Assembly: GCF_013004105.1 (NCBI RefSeq) | Contig: NZ_CP053085.1 | Coordinates: forward strand, 2,728,001-2,792,000 | From: Gemmatimonas groenlandica | GTDB lineage: Bacteria; Gemmatimonadota; Gemmatimonadetes; Gemmatimonadales; Gemmatimonadaceae | Direction of reading: 5' to 3' | DNA: 64,000 nucleotides | Part shown: piece after piece, positions 7,548 to 18,362 of the stretch | Numbering within the stretch: the stretch's first letter is position 1 | Layout of the letters: every line of letters begins with the position of its first letter | Made by a program: the position numbers and the translations under genes | Notes under the pieces: model-generated | What the model was told of the DNA's origin: nothing | The model's database searches: none | Seen by the model: the letters and a program-made list of their open reading frames with translations, nothing else

Positions 7548-8774
7548 CTATCGCTTGAGTTTCGGCGCACGATCGCTCGGCGCACGCTCACCCGACGCAC
7601 CGGGAGTGGGCGACGCTTCGCGCGGCGCCGTCACGCGCACCGGCGCATCATGCGTGAGCGTGAGATGTCCTTCGGTGATGATCTGATCGCCGGGATTCAC
7701 CGGGATCTGTCCGGTGGTGGAATCGGGGAGTACTTCGGTATCGACGCCATTGGTGCGACCGGGTACGATGTACGTCCACTGGGCGCGGCCATCTTTGACC
7801 ACGAACACCAGCGGTCGTCCGTCGCGCTCAATGACAGCACGCGACGGCACCATGCGGCGTCCCGGCAATCGTGTGGCCTCGAGTTGCACGTCGGCGTACA
7901 TGCCGGGGCGCAGTGTGCCATCGCCCTGCACGCGCACGATGGCGCGTCCGGCGCGCGTGACCGAATCCACCAGCGGCAACAGCGCATCCACGCGACCTCG
8001 CAGCAATCGACCCGGCGCGCCGGCACTGCTGATGCTGGCTTCACCGCCAACACGCACCAACGGCAGGTCGTGTTCGAGCACCTGCGCCTCGATGCGCAGA
8101 TTGCGCGTGTCCACGACGGTGAGCAGTGCCTGCCCGGCACTGACCTTCTCGCCGGCCGAGATCTCGATGGCGTCGACCGTGCCGTCCACGGGGCTTCGGA
8201 TCGTGGCGCGATCCTGTTCGTACTTGGCGCGCTCGAGGCGCAACCGCGCGCCCACCAAGCCCGCCTTGTTCATGAGTGCCTTGCGCTGCTCGGGCGTGGG
8301 GCCGCGGCCGGTCACCACCGACTCCGGCACGAAGCTTTCCAGAAAGCGCTGCTCCGCTTCATCGGTGCTGGCCTGCGCGTCGCGCACCGAGAGATCGAAC
8401 GGATACCCATCGAGACGGGCCAGCACCTGTCCCTTGGATACCGCTTGCCCGGGCCGTACCACGAGTTGCGCCACCGTGCCCGCCACCTCGGCGCGCAGCT
8501 TCACCGCCGCATCGGAGCGGATCTGTCCCGTGGTGGTTACCCGAAGCACCAGGTCGCCGTCGCGCGCCTCTTCGGCCATCACCGGTAACGCCAGAGCCGG
8601 GCGACCGGCTTCCTCCGCCGCTTCCTGCGCGGCGGTGGAGGTGGCGCTCGTGGAATCGGTGGTGGCGGCGGCGTCGCCCTTGTTGCAGGCGACGAGCGCG
8701 AGCAGCAGTGGCGCCACAGTCTGCAGGCCGAAGGTCACACGGGTAACGGACCGAGCGAGGCTGAGAGGGAGCAT
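7548..8774 (-). CDS. RND efflux periplasmic adaptor lipoprotein (MFP/HlyD-like)
   Basis: This 408-residue membrane-fusion protein bridges RND pumps to an outer-membrane channel. I chose the ATG at 8774 over an in-frame start 58 codons upstream because it directly begins a lipoprotein signal peptide whose lipobox LVAC puts the lipidated Cys at residue 30. The barrel-sandwich hybrid is visible as LRAEVAGTVAQLVVRPGQAVSKGQVLARLD and, after a helical hairpin, as RSPVDGTVDAIEISAGEKVSAGQALLTV. A beta-barrel and membrane-proximal domain follow. The C-terminus is Pro/Ala-rich and ends KLKR. It is first in the operon with the two RND pumps. Confidence 0.9.
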   Translation of the reverse strand: MLPLSLARSVTRVTFGLQTVAPLLLALVACNKGDAAATTDSTSATSTAAQEAAEEAGRPALALPVMAEEARDGDLVLRVTTTGQIRSDAAVKLRAEVAGTVAQLVVRPGQAVSKGQVLARLDGYPFDLSVRDAQASTDEAEQRFLESFVPESVVTGRGPTPEQRKALMNKAGLVGARLRLERAKYEQDRATIRSPVDGTVDAIEISAGEKVSAGQALLTVVDTRNLRIEAQVLEHDLPLVRVGGEASISSAGAPGRLLRGRVDALLPLVDSVTRAGRAIVRVQGDGTLRPGMYADVQLEATRLPGRRMVPSRAVIERDGRPLVFVVKDGRAQWTYIVPGRTNGVDTEVLPDSTTGQIPVNPGDQIITEGHLTLTHDAPVRVTAPREASPTPGASGERAPSDRAPKLKR

Positions 8775-9015
8775 TGGAGTCGAGAGTGGCGAGGCCCGTG
8801 CACGCGGGACAGCGGCGACGGGCGATGGCACGCAATTGGTGTCATCCCGCCGGCCAAAGGTTGCCGTCAGGTAAGTCTCGACAAGTATGGAGCGCAGCGA
8901 CGGATCTCGCGACGGCAAAAGTACGCGGGTGGGGCCATGCAAGCGCACTGAACGCGCGAACGGAGCATTCGAGCATCGGCAAACAATCCGCTAACAAACG
9001 GAGACCCCAACTCGC

Positions 9016-9693
9016 CTAATATGGAGGGTTGCCGCGACGAGTACGCTGCAACCACTCGGCAAGCTCCCGAGCGTCCGAGGGGACTCCTGTCAGCCAGCCG
9101 TTTACGATAAGTGTCGGCGTGGCTCGAACGCCGAGACGCCGAGCGAGCTTTATACTCTCGACAACGGCGGCGGAGGTGTCCGATTGCTCTGCGCAGCGAA
9201 CGAAGGCTGCCGAATCCACGGATTGCACCCTCTTCGCTATTTCGGCGACATTAAAACGACTCAGGGTGTCCTGCACCTCGAACAGTAAGTGATGGGCGAG
9301 CGAAAACCTCCCGAGTCTGTTTGCACATTCTGCAACATTCGCCGCGCGCACCGCCTGCGGATGACTCGGCAGCGGGAACTGCAAATAGCCGATCGTCAGT
9401 TCGGAACTCGAACTTCGCGCGTAATCGCTGAGCAAACGTTCGAAGCGTTTACACGCGGGACATTGATAGTCAGCAAAAATGAGGAGCGTGTCCGGCGCAG
9501 TCACCACGTCTATGCGACTCGCAAGCGAGAAAGGTCGTGCCTCAGCCGTCAAGCGCCGAGCAGGTTCTTGTTGCTCAGAATCGACACGTTGAGGCTGAGG
9601 GCGTACGAACGTTTGATAGGCGAGACTCACGGCTGCCAGTAGTGCCGCGAGTACCAAAACCGCGTCCACGATCCCTTTCCAACGCGTACTCAC
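9016..9693 (-). CDS. Membrane-anchored DsbA/thioredoxin-fold oxidoreductase (CPAC)
   Basis: This 225-residue protein has one N-terminal membrane segment (about 8-28) that places the rest in the periplasm. The fold carries LLIFADYQCPACKRFE with active-site Cys78-Pro-Ala-Cys81 and a cis-proline loop GVRATPTLIVNG (Pro193), typical of DsbA-like thioredoxin_4 proteins that make or shuffle disulfides. Its ATG overlaps the stop of the upstream beta-propeller lipoprotein gene by four bases. It is therefore the last gene of an operon that starts with a secreted peptide containing four cysteines. I infer that it oxidises or isomerises that peptide or the propeller. Two extra cysteines (near 123 and 167) are also present. 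The redox direction cannot be read from sequence. Confidence 0.88.
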   Translation of the reverse strand: MSTRWKGIVDAVLVLAALLAAVSLAYQTFVRPQPQRVDSEQQEPARRLTAEARPFSLASRIDVVTAPDTLLIFADYQCPACKRFERLLSDYARSSSSELTIGYLQFPLPSHPQAVRAANVAECANRLGRFSLAHHLLFEVQDTLSRFNVAEIAKRVQSVDSAAFVRCAEQSDTSAAVVESIKLARRLGVRATPTLIVNGWLTGVPSDARELAEWLQRTRRGNPPY

Positions 9694-10889
9694 CTTTGGG
9701 ACTCCGCTGACGGCGGCAGTGTAGAACTGGGGAGTTCTGGTGACGCCCGTTCAAGGCGGTAAACACTGAAAGAAGGTCCGTCTTCGTCTTCGTCGCGGAA
9801 TACGAGGATACCCTGTTCAGTCGACCGCACGAGTTTCGAACCCGCAGGCAGGCGGACTTCCCCTAAAAACGTTCCGGACGGCGCATCAAAAATATCGACC
9901 GGCACGGGCATGCCCATATTCGACGAGCGCGCGATGAACAGGTGATTTTGCGCATCGACTAGCGGCATCCCGGCAAACAAGAACTTGTACGGAGTGATGG
10001 GGTACGATTCGAGAGCCATCTCGATAGACCGACGCGCGGCCTCATTAGGCGCCCTCGTCGCCAGACTGCGCCGAAATATCTCGACAGAGTCTTTGTCGGC
10101 GTCGGACATCCTGACTACGGGAACTCCCTCTCGTTCGATAAATCCAGCCGGTCGCCCGCCAGCGCTATAGCGAGCGATTCTATATATGGTGTCCGCCTGC
10201 ACACGCGAGTAGATGGTTCCGTCTGGCGCGACGGCCATCCAGCAATACGTGCAGAGACTACGTTCCGGGTCGCTTGAGAATTGCAGCTCCACCACCGGCG
10301 CGGCGGCGGGAGAATCACCCAGCAAAAGTAGGATGCTCGACCGACTGGTTCGCTGCGCGTGCACTCGAACGCCTGCGGTCGTCCGCCACATTCGAGAAAC
10401 GAATAGCGACGGAAGCGATACTTCGGACTCGCATCGTTCCTCGTTATATAGTTGCACACGCCGATTCTTGGAGTCACTGACGAGAATCTTCCCTTTAGGA
10501 TCTACAGCAAGTCCACCAGCGAGCGCGAGCTCGCACGGGCCCTGTCCGTAGTGCGCGAGTTCGGCGAACGTGCCGTCCCAGCGCAGGAGCGACAGCCCGC
10601 GTCCCCGCCCACTAGCGAAGACGACCCCAATTGCTCCGAGCAAGTCAGCATCGATCAGTTCACCACCGGCGATGCTGTCGGGCACTGTTAGCGTTCGAAT
10701 CGACTGCAGCCTATACTCAGAAGCCGTCGCGCCATTTTCGTGACTGCAGCCGATCGTTACGAACGCGAGTAGCGAGCAAGCGAAGAGGCGCAGAGCTCTC
10801 GCCGCTGTTCGAATCGTCCCAGTTCGTGGAGATCCGCGGGGTACGACTGACAGCGGGTTTGTCACCCATCGAATGCGCTTCGCCTTCAT
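9690..10889 (-). CDS. 6-bladed beta-propeller lipoprotein (module 1)
   Basis: This 399-residue predicted lipoprotein has an unusually long basic N-region before a hydrophobic segment and a lipobox ending TIGC (Cys48). The mature part shows NHL/6-bladed propeller features: repeated short strands with LLRWDGTFAELAHYGQGPCEL, GGLAVDPKGKILVSDSKNRRVQLY and MAVAPDGTIYSR. These are the blade motifs of 6-bladed propellers known from surface or periplasmic lipoproteins. It starts 6 bp after a small Cys-rich peptide gene and overlaps the thioredoxin-fold gene by four bases. The same peptide-then-propeller order recurs at 12461-13911. The region has lower G+C than the efflux operon. Role unknown; a binding scaffold for the peptide is an inference. 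Confidence 0.8.
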   Translation of the reverse strand: MKAKRIRWVTNPLSVVPRGSPRTGTIRTAARALRLFACSLLAFVTIGCSHENGATASEYRLQSIRTLTVPDSIAGGELIDADLLGAIGVVFASGRGRGLSLLRWDGTFAELAHYGQGPCELALAGGLAVDPKGKILVSDSKNRRVQLYNEERCESEVSLPSLFVSRMWRTTAGVRVHAQRTSRSSILLLLGDSPAAAPVVELQFSSDPERSLCTYCWMAVAPDGTIYSRVQADTIYRIARYSAGGRPAGFIEREGVPVVRMSDADKDSVEIFRRSLATRAPNEAARRSIEMALESYPITPYKFLFAGMPLVDAQNHLFIARSSNMGMPVPVDIFDAPSGTFLGEVRLPAGSKLVRSTEQGILVFRDEDEDGPSFSVYRLERASPELPSSTLPPSAESQR

Positions 10890-10895
10890 TTTATG

Positions 10896-11114
10896 TCAGT
10901 ACGGGTACTGGATCGCACATTGCGCGACGGTCCACGTGTGCGACTCCGAACAGGCCTCAATCGGATATCCGTGACTGGTGCAATACATATACGCGGTTCC
11001 CGCCCCTGCGTAACAGCGCGCGAGGTCACCAGGATCCTCCTCACCTTGCGCTGTTCCCGCTGCGAGCACGCTCATGACAATTGTTCCCGCCGAGACTATC
11101 CGAATTCGTCGCAT
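10896..11114 (-). CDS. Small secreted four-cysteine peptide (module 1)
   Basis: This gene encodes 72 residues. The ATG at 11114 is preferred over upstream in-frame starts because an AGGGAG ribosome-binding site lies just before it and because it begins directly with a signal peptide (MRRIRIVSAG, then a hydrophobic stretch to TAQG). The mature peptide is about 48 residues with cysteines at 34, 45, 55 and 66, evenly spaced as C-x10-C-x9-C-x10-C. It has aromatic residues and an acidic start (EEDPGD). This predicts two disulfides in a tiny extracytoplasmic domain. It is the first gene of an operon with a propeller lipoprotein and a CPAC oxidoreductase. I recognise no family. Confidence 0.7.
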   Translation of the reverse strand: MRRIRIVSAGTIVMSVLAAGTAQGEEDPGDLARCYAGAGTAYMYCTSHGYPIEACSESHTWTVAQCAIQYPY

Positions 11115-11217
11115 GTGACTCCCTACCATGAATGAAGAATTGCACACACCACGCCTACGCGTGGGCAGCACGATGATACTCCATGTTCTTTTGAGCGCTA
11201 CAACAGAAATCCGTGAG

Positions 11218-11934
11218 TCAGCGAAGCTCCACCGCATTCTGTAGGCGCATGTATGGCTCCCACGCCTGCAGGGCGAGGCGCTCCAGCCACGCCAGTCCTC
11301 GAGATTCGACCTCGGTCCATGAGTGCCCGGTCGTCGAGCTTACTAACCGATAGTACGCGGCAGGATACTCGCCGCGACTGAGCGCCAAGTTGCACAAGGA
11401 GGTGCCACGCTCGGCGCGCCTCGCCATTTCGACGACCTGAAACCAATTCTTCAACAGCCGAACGGGTGGCAGTCGTCTCCGCGCGAGGTCGCGTGACAGC
11501 TCACTGCGATCGGCAACGCCTATAGTTGCACAGGCGTCAGCGACGGTGACCGCCAACCGCAGCTCGGCGAACAGTTCCGCCAGCGCACCCATCCGAACAC
11601 GGAGCTCCAGCCAATGCATCTTGACTTCGTCGTCACCGTATGCGCCGGTGTCAAGCAGCAAGCATTCCTCCGCCGACTCCAAATCGCTCCACTCGATTCG
11701 CCGTTCAAGACCAAAGTACTCAATACGTGATGCGGCGATTGCGACTTCATACTTGAAGCGGAATCGTTGGTGCGCAAGAGCAAATTCGCAGAGACTGAAT
11801 TCTCGTTGCCCACCATGTTCTCCAATGGCCCACCGTGTTCGCTTACAACCGCATTTTCGCGCAACGCCGCGTGTTTTCGTCCCTCGCGCTGCACTCAGCA
11901 CCGCGCGGTCCCAATCACCCACCGCACGATCCAC
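11218..11934 (-). CDS. AraC-like helix-turn-helix regulator (start uncertain)
   Basis: The open frame gives up to 238 residues. The C-terminal half matches the second regulator of the window (16116-16940) in layout. ADRSELSRDLARRRLPPVRLLKNWFQVVEMA aligns with its RRTLQNRLTAARLPPLRPFLTWCRILVAA, followed by a second HTH (YPAAYYRLVSSTTGHSWTEV). This is the double-HTH plan of AraC-type activators. The first ~45 codons overlap a tandem 20-bp repeat (11806-11845) and the end of the next gene, so the true start may lie further in; no good ATG with a ribosome site is visible there. It lies directly upstream of the peptide/propeller operon on the same strand. I infer that it regulates that operon. Confidence 0.6.
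   Translation of the reverse strand: MDRAVGDWDRAVLSAARGTKTRGVARKCGCKRTRWAIGEHGGQREFSLCEFALAHQRFRFKYEVAIAASRIEYFGLERRIEWSDLESAEECLLLDTGAYGDDEVKMHWLELRVRMGALAELFAELRLAVTVADACATIGVADRSELSRDLARRRLPPVRLLKNWFQVVEMARRAERGTSLCNLALSRGEYPAAYYRLVSSTTGHSWTEVESRGLAWLERLALQAWEPYMRLQNAVELR
11806..11845 (+). promoter_or_regulatory. Tandem 20-bp direct repeat, degenerate copy (putative operator)
   Basis: Two adjacent 20-bp units begin TTGCCCACCATGTTC (11806-11825) and TGGCCCACCGTGTTC (11826-11845). They match the better conserved pairs at 14197-14236 and 16031-16070 in sequence and in the exact 20-bp period. This copy lies within the 5' part of the AraC-like frame on the opposite strand. Two-turn direct repeats are the usual binding geometry of AraC-family proteins; binding here is inferred. 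Confidence 0.45.
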
Positions 11935-12365
11935 GTACCCGCGGTCTCACCTTCCGCGTGCTGCACCAGCGCCGTGAGCGTATCTCCGCGCATCGCATAG
12001 CGCGCCGGAATCTCCGCCGAGACCAGGAGCTGTACTTCGCGGCAGTTGCGCCGCGAACGCCAGCCCACAACTAATACGTGCGCCGGCCCCGTGAAAGTGC
12101 CCTTTGCGAAGGTGGGATCGCACGTGATCACCGCCGAACGCTCGCCGGAGAGCATGCCCACGAGCATCGGGAACGACCAGATGACGGCGAATGCCGGCGC
12201 CTTCGACGGATCGCGCGGCAGCTCCAGCATCACCTCGGGGCGCGCGCCACGTCGCGTAGAGATTTCCAGCGCCACCGAATCGATCTGCTTTGATGCCAGA
12301 TGCCAGCGGTACATCATGTTTGACGCTTCGAACACGCCGACCACGGTGCTTTCATCGCGCTCCAC
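11895..12365 (-). CDS. Hypothetical protein, 156 aa
   Basis: The frame opens with GTG at 12365 and I recognise no family. The composition is protein-like, with alternating hydrophobic segments such as PAFAVIWSFPMLVGMLSGE and HVLVVGWRSRRNCREVQLLVSAE. There is no signal peptide and no clear domain motif, and no strong ribosome-binding site precedes the GTG. The 3' end overlaps the AraC-like frame by 40 bases. A nearly perfect 50-bp palindrome lies just upstream, which could mean the 5' end of an older gene was cut by the repeat. It may be a remnant. Confidence 0.4.
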   Translation of the reverse strand: MERDESTVVGVFEASNMMYRWHLASKQIDSVALEISTRRGARPEVMLELPRDPSKAPAFAVIWSFPMLVGMLSGERSAVITCDPTFAKGTFTGPAHVLVVGWRSRRNCREVQLLVSAEIPARYAMRGDTLTALVQHAEGETAGTWIVRWVIGTARC

Positions 12366-12371
12366 TTCCGG

Positions 12372-12421
12372 TCAAGGGGTCAGAGTCGTTGAACGCCCGT
12401 TCAACGACTCTGACCCCTTGA
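12372..12421. repeat. 50-bp near-perfect palindrome, GGGGTCAGAGTCGTTGAA family
   Basis: Two perfect 24-bp arms (12372-12395 and 12398-12421) flank a two-base centre. The arm sequence contains GGGGTCAGAGTCGTTGAAC. Single copies recur at 14048-14071 and, diverged, at 14090-14113. It resembles REP-type palindromes spread by REP-associated transposases in other bacteria, but no such gene is in the window. Confidence 0.85.
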
Positions 12422-12460
12422 ACGGCGCCGACCGTAGGGTTGACGACTATTGGGTCGTCC

Positions 12461-13639
12461 CTAGTACCAATACGTAGGTCCACACTCGGATGGCGAGGTT
12501 GATCGCCTGAAACTTCTACCTCCATTCCGCCGAAGCGTAGTTAATCGCGCACCGGCTGAGTCCACGCGGACAGCAAACAAGCGTTGAGCGTCCAACGAAA
12601 GGGTCACGAATCGACCATCCGCTCGAGTGCGCTCCTCTGGGAATCCTGTACCCATATGTCGATCCAACACAGACGAGCCATCGACTAAGCCCGCGAACCA
12701 GACATCGTCTGTCGTGACTACAAAAGGCTTACGTGAGCGGATGAGGGGTTCTGGAGTAAGCCTATTTAGGCTGTTGACCAGTGCCTCGCGGTCCGAGGCC
12801 TTCCCCAGCTCGTCAGCAGCGGACTCAATGAGCAATCGACGTGCACCAGGACTGAGAGTATCGACCGGAGACGAGAATGGGCGGGATGAACGCGATGACT
12901 TCGTACTGAAGCTGAGAAGTGAGTCGATGACGACGACCGAGTCGCCGCACACCGCGAATGCCCTAGGAAACGGAGATCCTGGGATTGCGACCAGCTGACT
13001 CGACTGCTGAGTTATCGCAACCAACGCGCGCTTTGATCCGTCGACACGCAGAATGGGCTCAGGCTGCCGATCCATCGGCCCGCTCAGAATGGTCAACACC
13101 TCGCGAGACACGGCAACACCGTGGTCAGTTTCGTTCCTGTTCGTTGAGCTGACCCCGACGAACATTCCGTTGTGAAGCCGACCGATGATTCGCAACATGC
13201 CAACGCTTGGCCACGCTGAGAGAACGGTCGCGGTTACCACCTGCAGGCTTCCGTCGAAGACGGTTAGCCTCCTGATCTGCGGATCCCAAACGGCTACAGA
13301 GTCCCCACCGATTGGAAAGAGAGCCGAAACAGACAGAAACTCGCCTGGTCCGCGTCCCACGCCACCTGATTGCGCCACGACCCCGCCGATGCTGTCGCGC
13401 ACGCGCAGCACAAACGAATTCGCGTCTATATCAACTGTGCGATTTCGGCCGATCGAGAGGCCTTGAAGCGGACTGTCATCGCTACCATCCGAAGCGAGTT
13501 GAGGAGCTGAGTCAGTGACCAGCTTTTCGGCAGGGGTCAAGGTTCCGGTGCGAGTTGTGTCGGGCATGCTACATGCCGCCATCATCGCTAACGCGATGAT
13601 GGCGGCAGTTACCGACAATCTCCGATCTGTCAGACGCAA
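12461..13639 (-). CDS. 6-bladed beta-propeller lipoprotein (module 2)
   Basis: This 392-residue protein has a lipoprotein signal (MRLTDRR, hydrophobic stretch, AMMAAC with Cys23). Blade-like motifs follow: VVAQSGGVGRGPGEFLSVSALFPIGGDSVAVWDPQIRRLTVFD, then VFVGV- and FAVCGDSVVVID-type strands. The VGRGPGEF...D...RL.VFD pattern is typical of 6-bladed propellers in this phylum. The only usable start is TTG at 13639-13637, inside the last codons of the peptide gene, giving a 10-base overlap and implying translational coupling. It has the same arrangement as 9690-11114. Molecular function is unknown. Confidence 0.8.
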   Translation of the reverse strand: MRLTDRRLSVTAAIIALAMMAACSMPDTTRTGTLTPAEKLVTDSAPQLASDGSDDSPLQGLSIGRNRTVDIDANSFVLRVRDSIGGVVAQSGGVGRGPGEFLSVSALFPIGGDSVAVWDPQIRRLTVFDGSLQVVTATVLSAWPSVGMLRIIGRLHNGMFVGVSSTNRNETDHGVAVSREVLTILSGPMDRQPEPILRVDGSKRALVAITQQSSQLVAIPGSPFPRAFAVCGDSVVVIDSLLSFSTKSSRSSRPFSSPVDTLSPGARRLLIESAADELGKASDREALVNSLNRLTPEPLIRSRKPFVVTTDDVWFAGLVDGSSVLDRHMGTGFPEERTRADGRFVTLSLDAQRLFAVRVDSAGARLTTLRRNGGRSFRRSTSPSECGPTYWY

Positions 13640-13911
13640 TTTTCGACCGTGTAAACTGATGTACTAGTCGTCGTGGTACCGTCTCGTACGCACACGGTCG
13701 CGACACTGAATCGCGTCCTCGCGCAAGTCGCTTGTATGACAGGGGGACCCGGGTCGATCGTCTTCACGAAGTATGTCGTCGAACTCGAGGACGATCCGGT
13801 GCACGTCGTCCCGTCGTCCTCGCAAGGACCGTCACACGGAAGAACTTGCGCAGCAATTGCTGCCGGCAACAAGGCTGTTGCCAATACGGCTGAAATGAAT
13901 CGACGCTTCAT
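13630..13911 (-). CDS. Small secreted six-cysteine, Ser/Thr-rich peptide (module 2)
   Basis: This 93-residue protein starts at ATG 13911 behind a CGGAG ribosome site. The signal peptide MKRRFISAVLATALLPAAIAAQ is clear. The mature ~70 residues hold six cysteines (26, 30, 37, 63, 74, 92), acidic CDGPCEDDG at the N-terminus and Ser/Thr runs (GSSSSSTT, GTTTTSTS). Three disulfides are possible. No known family is recognised. It is the first gene of the second peptide/propeller module and is translationally coupled to the lipoprotein. The sequence is unlike peptide 1 apart from size, export and cysteine content. Confidence 0.72.
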   Translation of the reverse strand: MKRRFISAVLATALLPAAIAAQVLPCDGPCEDDGTTCTGSSSSSTTYFVKTIDPGPPVIQATCARTRFSVATVCVRDGTTTTSTSVYTVENCV

Positions 13912-14047
13912 ACAAGACTCCGTTTATTAGAGACTGCCTGCTATGCTCGCAATCGCAAGCACGCGGGGATGGTGTGATTCACATCGTGCGAAGTCAACAC
14001 TGAAGTGTCGTGCGCGGCGTTTCAACCGCTTGCATCTGTATTCCGCT

Positions 14048-14113
14048 TTCAACGACTCTGACCCCTTGAACAGACCCCAGAGCGCTCGCTTCAACAACTC
14101 TGACCTCTTGAAC
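14048..14113. repeat. Two solo copies of the GGGGTCAGAGTCGTTGAA repeat
   Basis: Positions 14048-14071 match one arm of the palindrome at 12372-12421 (TTCAACGACTCTGACCCCTT), and 14090-14113 is a diverged copy. They lie in the 354-bp gap between peptide 2 (13911) and the next gene (14266). Apart from these repeats and the tandem motif at 14197, I see nothing in that gap. Confidence 0.75.
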
Positions 14114-14196
14114 GCCGCTCCAACGAGACGCCACGAAGTCAGAATCGCACCATTTCGTCCCCATGTCGAAAGAAAATCACCGATTTCGGAAAGTCG

Positions 14197-14236
14197 TTGC
14201 CCACGGTGTTCGGTAGTTGCCCACTGTGTTCGGTTG
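14197..14236 (+). promoter_or_regulatory. Tandem 20-bp direct repeat (putative AraC-type operator)
   Basis: Two head-to-tail 20-bp units, TTGCCCACGGTGTTCGGTAG (14197-14216) and TTGCCCACTGTGTTCGGTTG (14217-14236), end 29 bp before the ATG of the small helical protein. The first copy plus the preceding AAGTCG is identical to that at 16051-16076 on the other strand. The two-turn spacing suits an AraC-family dimer. Confidence 0.6.
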
Positions 14237-16030: not shown

Positions 16031-16070
16031 GACCTCATCACGGTGGGCAATCACCGAACACCGTGGGCAA
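16031..16070 (-). promoter_or_regulatory. Tandem 20-bp direct repeat (putative operator in divergent promoter)
   Basis: Read on the minus strand, 16070-16051 is TTGCCCACGGTGTTCGGTGA and 16050-16031 begins TTGCCCACCGTGATG, again with a 20-bp period. The pair lies between the divergent lipoprotein (GTG at 15980) and the AraC-like regulator (GTG at 16116), where an autoregulator would be expected to bind. Confidence 0.6.
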
Positions 16071-16115
16071 CGACTTTTTCGCCGCACGATTCACTCTTCC
16101 CACGTCGACCCACAC

Positions 16116-16996: not shown

Positions 16997-17070
16997 GCGC
17001 GTGTAGCTCAGTTGGATAGAGCGTCTGCCTCCGGAGCAGAAGGTCGCAGGTTCGAGTCCTGCCATGCGCG
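16997..17070 (+). tRNA. tRNA-Arg (anticodon CCG)
   Basis: A complete 74-nt cloverleaf is present: acceptor GCGCGTG (16997-17003) pairs with CATGCGC (17063-17069). The D-arm is GCTCAGTTGGATAGAGC, the anticodon stem TCTGC/GCAGA with loop CTCCGGA giving anticodon CCG, and the T-arm GCAGG-TTCGAGT-CCTGC. The discriminator base is G at 17070 and CCA is not encoded. It decodes CGG arginine codons. rho begins close downstream. Confidence 0.95.
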
Positions 17071-17108
17071 TCCGTTCGGCCTGCGGTCACTCTCGTTTCC
17101 CATGCCTA

Positions 17109-18362
17109 GTGCACGTAGCCGAGCTGAAGCGGAAGTCTGTTCCTGAACTCCTGGCGCTGGCCGCGTCATTGCATGTCACGAGTACCAGCGGCCTTCGCAA
17201 GCAGGAGTTGATCTTCCGGATCGAGCAGGCTCTGCTCGATGCCGAAACGACGCTGTATGGGGAAGGCGTCCTTGAAGTGCTCCCGGAGGGCTACGGCTTT
17301 CTCCGGTCGCAGGACTTCAACTATTTGCACGGCCCGGACGATATCTACGTCTCCCCTTCGCAGGTGAAGCGCTTCGACCTCCGCACCGGTGACACGGTGA
17401 TGGGGGAAGTCCGCCCGCCGAAGGAGTGGGAACGCTATCTCGCGCTCCTCAAGGTGGAGCGCATCAACGGTGGTGACCCTGAGCAGTCGAAATTGCGTAG
17501 CGCCTTCGACAACCTGACCGCGAAGTATCCCGACGAACGCATCCGCCTCGAGCGGAGCAACGGCGAAGTCGCAACCCGGATCTGCGACATTATCGCCCCG
17601 CTCGGGAAGGGCCAGCGCGCCCTTATCGTTGCCCCGCCCAAGGGTGGCAAGACGATCCTCATGCAGCAGCTCGCGAACGCGATCATCGAGAATCATCCCG
17701 AGATCACGCTCATCGTGCTGCTGATCGACGAACGCCCGGAAGAAGTGACCGACATGCAGGCCAGCTGTCCCAAGGCCGAGGTCATCTGCTCCACGTTCGA
17801 CGAAACGGCCGACCGCCATGTACAGGTAGCCGACATGGTCATCGAGAAGGCCAAGCGCATGGTGGAGTCGGGCAAGGACGTCGTGATTCTGCTCGATTCC
17901 ATTACGCGACTGGCCCGCGCCCACAACGCGGTGGCGCCGCAGGGCGGCAAGATCATGTCGGGTGGCATGGAGGCCTCGGCCATGCAGAAGCCCAAGGCGT
18001 TTTTCGGTGCGGCCCGCAATCTCAAGGAAGGCGGCTCGCTCACGATCGTCGCCACCGCGCTCATCGAGACCAACTCGCGTATGGACGAGCTGATCTTCGA
18101 GGAGTTCAAGGGCACCGGCAACATGGAGCTCGTGCTCGATCGCAAGCTGGCCGACAAGCGCATCTTCCCGGCGATCGACATCAACAAGTCGGGCACCCGT
18201 CGTGAAGAGCTCTTGCTCACGCCCTTCGAACAGCAGCGCATCTTCCTGTTGCGCGCGTTCCTGGGCGACATGCCGTCCGACGAGTCACTGCTGTTCCTGA
18301 TCAAGCGAATGGAACGCGCGCAGAACAACCAGGAATTCTTCGAACAGATGGCGGAAGCCTGA
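17109..18362 (+). CDS. rho: Transcription termination factor Rho
   Basis: Rho is the hexameric RNA helicase that ends transcription at Rho-dependent sites. The GTG at 17109 gives 417 residues (E. coli Rho has 419) and starts [17 protein letters not shown]; an ATG at 17064 lies inside the tRNA gene and would add 15 unlikely residues. The RNA-binding domain ([38 protein letters not shown]) is followed by the ATPase core. That core has P-loop [17 protein letters not shown], Walker [17 protein letters not shown], and the Q/R-loop region [20 protein letters not shown]. It is near-canonical throughout. Its short distance to the tRNA suggests possible co-transcription. Confidence 0.97.

Follow-up and report, generated by a model that had tools for sequence, protein, structure and literature searches.

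NVEALA peptides (PF14055) of Bacteroidota adjoin six-bladed propellers. In the methylamine dehydrogenase operon, MauA, MauB and MauD are a small disulfide-rich subunit, a beta-propeller subunit and a thioredoxin-fold helper, respectively. At pediocin- and sublancin-type loci, a dedicated thiol oxidoreductase acts in maturation and improves the potency of the peptide (PMC4919988). Here we compare with these systems a locus of Gemmatimonas groenlandica TET16, which lies on the minus strand from 13911 to 9016 of a 64,000-nt window (the whole stretch of DNA analysed, positions 2,728,001–2,792,000 of the 5,179,092-bp chromosome). According to the list of open reading frames (ORFs), the locus consists of two units, each encoding an exported cysteine-containing peptide (six and four Cys, respectively) and a propeller lipoprotein. 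It is one copy of an apparently undescribed gene cassette spread throughout the phylum Gemmatimonadota. We consider a disulfide-stabilised peptide cassette the best explanation, with a probability of roughly 60%: a membrane-anchored DsbA would oxidise the exported peptide, and the propeller would be its periplasmic binding partner. No literature on NVEALA peptides or on exported peptides of Gemmatimonadota with propellers was found in open-access papers, subscription journals lying outside this scope.

The genes follow one another in the order pep1, prop1, a propeller remnant, a regulator-like gene, pep2, prop2 and the CPAC gene (Table 1). The ORF calls reproduce the genes, as well as the overlap and the gap between peptide and propeller genes, that an earlier sequence-only reading of this DNA had reported. 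That reading placed the CPAC gene in the six-Cys unit, which is incorrect, as it continues the four-Cys unit (11114–9690). The remnant of a third propeller and the repeats described below were not part of that reading. The region is indeed more A+T-rich, with a GC content of 59.0% compared with 65.4% for the window, and belongs to the lowest 1.2% of 4.9-kb windows. As in NVEALA loci, a small exported peptide is found close to a propeller lipoprotein, here one with a profile likeness to six-bladed propellers, whereas the constant partner is a DsbA. PF14055 matched neither peptide of the window and nothing over its cut-off in 179 Gemmatimonadaceae genomes, with a positive Bacteroides control, in agreement with the earlier statement that these peptides share no motif with NVEALA. 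Likewise, no Pfam or NCBIfam family was assigned to pep1, pep2 or ten peptides from related loci.

Judged by its sequence, the CPAC protein belongs to the DsbA-like oxidoreductases. It matches Thioredoxin_4 (PF13462) with an E-value of 6e-20 (72.5 bits, cut-off 23.2) and DSBA with 1e-9. The CPAC active site and the cis-Pro ATPT loop are present, and the Cys pair and the TP are kept across the family alignment. To relate this family to peptide genes, we counted distinct Gemmatimonadota DsbA relatives with a profile E<1e-28 and enough flank, and looked for a small exported ORF with at least four Cys at a distance of ≤1450 bp on the same strand as the DsbA. Such an ORF is present near 37 of the 54 relatives, compared with 13 of 290 other genes at these loci (Fisher ~1e-25), in a set of loci that is not a random sample. 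This stricter count supersedes an earlier gene-level association of 22/41. By the same criterion, a peptide lies near 1 of 11 more distant, generic DsbAs of the phylum and near 4 of 52 DsbAs of other phyla. A profile made from two DsbA sequences gave mostly ordinary DsbAs from many phyla, which were used as the control set.

The N-termini of the peptides are signal peptides with AxA-type cleavage sites. In genome G060 (C249, locus L041), a homologue of pep2 with all four Cys aligned sits before a homologous propeller, and none of 2000 shuffles beat this alignment. In the search with the pep2 profile across the family, G060 holds the only true homologue, and the other matches were noise at E>0.01. 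A pep1 homologue is located beside a propeller in G067 (L040; phmmer E 0.005, with 3 of 2000 shuffles as good), and the N-terminal motif of pep1 also occurs in the peptides of L191, L193, L144 and L145. The Cys count of the mature part is even in 38 of 46 curated peptides (p=9e-6; two ORFs judged spurious were removed by hand), which fits proteins with paired cysteines. Among closely related peptide genes, pairwise dN/dS values (ratio of nonsynonymous to synonymous substitution rates) range from 0.03 to 0.52, indicating purifying selection, and distant pairs are saturated. A lack of such selection had been named beforehand as a sign against a peptide system, and the values show the opposite.

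Two further arrangements of peptide genes were noticed. At L266, L268 and L142, the peptide gene occurs in tandem copies inside one cassette. Meanwhile, at L284, L285 and L289, the gene of an exported 6-Cys peptide of 128 aa overlaps that of a 195-aa anchored protein, and a propeller follows. This peptide is 87–99% identical across three genomes, with a dN/dS of 0.03–0.2.

The propeller prop2 matches Pfam NHL with 22 bits against a cut-off of 20 (E 1.6e-4). When 17 related propellers are combined into a profile, this profile matches six-bladed structures of the NHL kind, reaching an E-value of 1.5e-29 with Thin NHL. The cassette propellers thus resemble the six-bladed propellers of the NHL type and DUF5128, from which they differ in being bacterial lipoproteins. 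An own-genome search with DUF5128 returned generic propellers only. The AlphaFold model of prop2 has a predicted local distance difference test score (pLDDT) of 51 from seven alignment rows and is read no further than all-beta. Foldseek on this low-confidence model gave NHL proteins as top matches at a template modelling (TM) score of about 0.2. The earlier description 'six-bladed' holds as a profile likeness to NHL propellers, while the blade number gains no support from the model.

In the wide propeller family, 16 of 103 members have an adjacent peptide and the majority have none. Propeller homologues lacking a neighbouring small exported ORF, which the sequence-only reading had listed as evidence against itself, are thus the rule in the broad family, but not among the cassette propellers. 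A majority of this kind would be expected if the peptides were chance neighbours, that is, exported-looking small ORFs beside unrelated propellers. We regard this explanation as hardly credible, since it is contradicted by the association, the Cys parity, the selection, the homologous peptide-propeller pairs and the fusions described below. A decayed propeller copy at L043:7321–7797 (G059) is close to the cassette propeller of L041 (G060).

DsbA and propeller are joined in a single frame in two distant families (L264 of G051, L410 of G433 and L411 of G278). The DsbA domains of these fusions give E-values from 8e-44 to 5e-33, and the propeller domains, with the family profile, from 3e-17 to 6e-14. 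The L410 fusion matches DUF5128 at 1.5e-4, just below its cut-off. Two of the three fusions lie directly 3' of an exported peptide with 6–9 Cys. On the other hand, the long DsbA open frames of L304/L408, L409 and L412 are overlapping frames, not fusions. A fused pair found in two families so far apart strongly indicates that both proteins work jointly on one side of the membrane, and it speaks more for maturation or holding of the peptide than for a remote receptor.

The fusions would also suit a model in which the peptide is a small disulfide-locked propeller subunit, the DsbA helps in a MauD-like way, and a periplasmic or outer-membrane enzyme or surface complex results. Here the trio of small Cys-rich exported protein, propeller and thioredoxin-fold helper recalls MauA, MauB and MauD, and the genes are strictly adjacent, with short gaps or overlaps. 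The propeller, however, is of the NHL kind, and the Pfam families of the methylamine dehydrogenase light and heavy subunits gave no match, with limits of E<=1 for the proteins of the window and E<=10 for ten further peptides. A conserved cofactor would not suit peptides as variable as these, and the cassette maps contain no cytochrome or cofactor-maturation genes. We find the subunit explanation unlikely.

On the basis of other genomes, the composition of the cassette can be compared. The pep2 homologue of G060:C249 is followed by a propeller of 26% identity and then by a CPAC gene broken by a stop, and the pep1 homologue of G067 by two propellers. A different cassette of G060 (C279, L045) has the order regulator homologue, CPAC gene, 8-Cys peptide of a third family, propeller lipoprotein and thioredoxin (Trx)-like gene, and cassettes similar to those of G060 are present in G051:C264 and G058:C99. 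Further cassettes with different peptides were found in G047, G051, G054, G056, G057, G058, G061, G067 and G070, a peptide-DsbA pair in G043 (L269), and cassettes beyond the genus in other Gemmatimonadota families. At L258, L269, L270, L415, L424 and L427, a CarboxypepD_reg or other large protein takes the place of the propeller; the Pfam check of such proteins covered L258, L269 and L270, and the one of L270 matches a TonB plug. Because CarboxypepD_reg replaces the propeller in many relatives, peptide and DsbA form the stable core, with the propeller frequent but not obligatory. The idea of peptide, propeller and CPAC protein as a functional unit around disulfide-type peptides is supported by the association, Cys parity, selection and fusions. 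The earlier interpretation, in which the propeller would receive or display the peptide for signalling, competition or surface display, is supported in part.

DsbA-like proteins with an SCPxS site follow the propeller at L045:6437–7063, L047 and L143, in cassettes with peptides of 8–11 Cys. Outside the phylum, DsbA genes of Myxococcales and Archangiaceae (L362, L391, L396) directly follow the gene of a small, conserved Cys protein with an anchor (CLVHGDCxxxERCLV). The out-of-phylum hits in these groups seem to represent this separate protein.

The cassette sits between rho and the gene of an RND adaptor. In G045, G048 and G071, these two genes are ~320 bp apart with no cassette between them, and G059 and G060 carry only tetratricopeptide repeat (TPR) and helix-turn-helix (HTH) genes at this site. 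Peptide cassettes occupy it in G058, G067, G057, G046 and G054, and several other genomes have propellers only. The adaptor and transporter genes share 71–80% identity with those of G058 and G067, whereas the DsbA is 27–33% identical and the peptides are unrelated, which makes the rho-RND site a place of cassette turnover or fast diversification. The site is an insertion hotspot with allele-like replacement of cassettes.

Repeats resembling repetitive extragenic palindromic (REP) sequences are found around one of the units. The motif GGGGTCAGAGTCGTTGAA has 18 exact copies genome-wide, mostly in inverted pairs a few bases apart, compared with 0 for the reversed control, and its copies in the window flank the pep1-prop1 module on both sides (Table 1). 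The repeat may be linked to mobility of this module. A second repeat, GAACACNGTGGGCAACNA, lies at 11803–11844, 14194–14235 and 16056–16073, with four copies in the window, where 0.06 would be expected. Searches of the window against plasmids, Rfam and the PADLOC anti-phage defence models gave no match, and promoter and terminator scans performed no better than shuffles.

Table 1. Features of the cassette locus and its surroundings, in window coordinates.
Feature	Position	Strand	Basis and remarks
pep1, 93-aa exported peptide	13630..13911	-	ORF; six Cys past signal peptide; family motif xPCxxxC(G/E)(G/D)DG..C
prop1, 392-aa beta-propeller lipoprotein	12461..13639	-	MMAAC lipobox (sequence); TTG start; 10-base overlap with pep1
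Third propeller gene, C-terminal remnant (truncated GC-rich ORF)	11895..12365	-	phmmer match with the C-terminal part of the L244 propeller (E 2.9e-5)
Regulator-like gene, HTH-type, start uncertain	11218..11934	-	Homologues in other Gemmatimonas genomes
pep2, 72-aa exported peptide	10896..11114	-	ORF; four Cys in mature part; C-terminal end WTxxQCxIQYP
prop2, 399-aa beta-propeller lipoprotein	9690..10889	-	VTIGC lipobox; NHL match; 6-base gap after pep2
CPAC DsbA-like oxidoreductase (predicted), 225 aa	9016..9693	-	N-terminal membrane anchor (sequence); 4-base overlap with prop2; Pfam matches
RND periplasmic adaptor, left edge of hotspot	7548..8948	-	Present in 24/30 genus genomes
rho, right edge of hotspot	17064..18362	+	Close to adaptor gene in cassette-free genomes
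REP-like palindrome 3' of prop1	12367..12425		28-nt arms, 2-nt loop, core GGGGTCAGAGTCGTTGAA
Further GGGGTCAGAGTCGTTGAA-type repeat copies, upstream of pep1	14045..14118		Opposite in orientation to one arm of the 12367-12425 palindrome

Hypervariable peptides at an exchangeable syntenic locus, together with repeats and a low GC content that fit mobility, would agree with a bacteriocin-like toxin. In this competition version of the best explanation, the peptide would kill related strains, the propeller lipoprotein would provide immunity and the DsbA would take the role of PedC, in keeping with the thiol oxidoreductases dedicated to the maturation of pediocin and sublancin (PMC4919988). The PedC/BrcD (TIGR01295) bacteriocin loci likewise place a small exported Cys peptide next to its own thioredoxin-fold oxidoreductase. 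In contrast, the peptides here carry a Sec signal peptide, the partner is a propeller, and the DsbA is anchored and of the Thioredoxin_4 kind, reaching only E 0.007 with TIGR01295. The marks of pediocin-type class II bacteriocins, a double-glycine leader and an ATP-binding cassette (ABC) transporter for the peptide, were found in neither the peptides nor the cassette maps. Moreover, the DsbA-propeller fusions point to maturation, not immunity, and no known immunity family was matched in the Pfam, NCBIfam and PADLOC scans. A bacteriocin-like toxin is thus possible, though rather doubtful.

The regulator-like gene belongs to a real and conserved family, with homologues in seven other Gemmatimonas genomes, mostly adjoining cassettes. 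Its start is uncertain because the homologues can be aligned only from about residue 70. The label 'AraC-like' given earlier is unproven, since the best Pfam match, HTH_31, is weak (E 0.95) and the family profile has no relative in the PDB. The conserved family beside cassettes in several genomes, as well as the allele-like variation of the peptides at one site, might suggest a pheromone, with the peptide as the signal, the propeller as the surface receptor and the adjoining regulator as the output. Such a pathway would have to connect an extracytoplasmic propeller to a cytoplasmic regulator, yet the cassette encodes no kinase, anti-sigma factor or transducer between them. The regulator family is found confidently in the genus only, so that cassettes elsewhere lack it. 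We judge a pheromone to be improbable.

The disulfide-stabilised peptide cassette remains our preferred explanation. Gene coupling, conservation, purifying selection, even Cys counts, fusions and turnover at the hotspot are direct observations at these loci. As a first step, the peptide would leave the cytoplasm via Sec and be processed by signal peptidase. The membrane-anchored DsbA would then oxidise its paired cysteines in the periplasm, as suggested by the co-localisation, the even Cys counts, and CPxC and cis-Pro motifs that are both intact. In this locus the propeller is a lipoprotein, and in some relatives it is covalently fused to DsbA; it may bind the peptide near the membrane as a holder, a carrier or a cognate receptor or immunity partner. 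The mature peptide would finally act outside the cell, possibly in strain-to-strain interaction such as competition or kin signalling. Between strains, the mature peptide differs strongly at one and the same site of the chromosome. Such an interaction would be the simplest explanation, and we lean to it, as variability of this kind usually marks it.

Several points weigh against the disulfide-stabilised peptide cassette. The pep1 unit has no DsbA gene of its own, and some related Trx-like proteins have an SCPxS site from which the second active-site Cys is absent. In many cassettes, the third partner is a CarboxypepD_reg protein and there is no propeller. The structure models are too weak for blades or peptide contacts, and the signal peptides come from an in-house hydropathy rule. 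Finally, the DsbA profile was made from cassette members and the loci were picked by similarity, which is why the association figure does not reflect random sampling; comparison with further genes of these loci is a partial control for this bias.

As a broader proposal, which we hold only tentatively, Gemmatimonadota may share a polymorphic disulfide-peptide system, in which strain-specific peptides, each with its own anchored DsbA and a recognising propeller, would be exchanged at hotspots and used to kill or recognise kin. Gemmatimonadota occur widely in soil and fresh water. They belong to the least understood bacteria, and no more than a handful of species is in culture (PMC8779627). G. 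groenlandica TET16 is a cultured carrier of the cassette, which makes the idea testable at present. If it is true, the large hypervariable peptide set, with oxidoreductases dedicated to it, would offer a source of bioactive mini-proteins that is as yet untapped. It would also give a first handle on the interactions of Gemmatimonadota and a test case for the ligands of extracytoplasmic six-bladed propellers.

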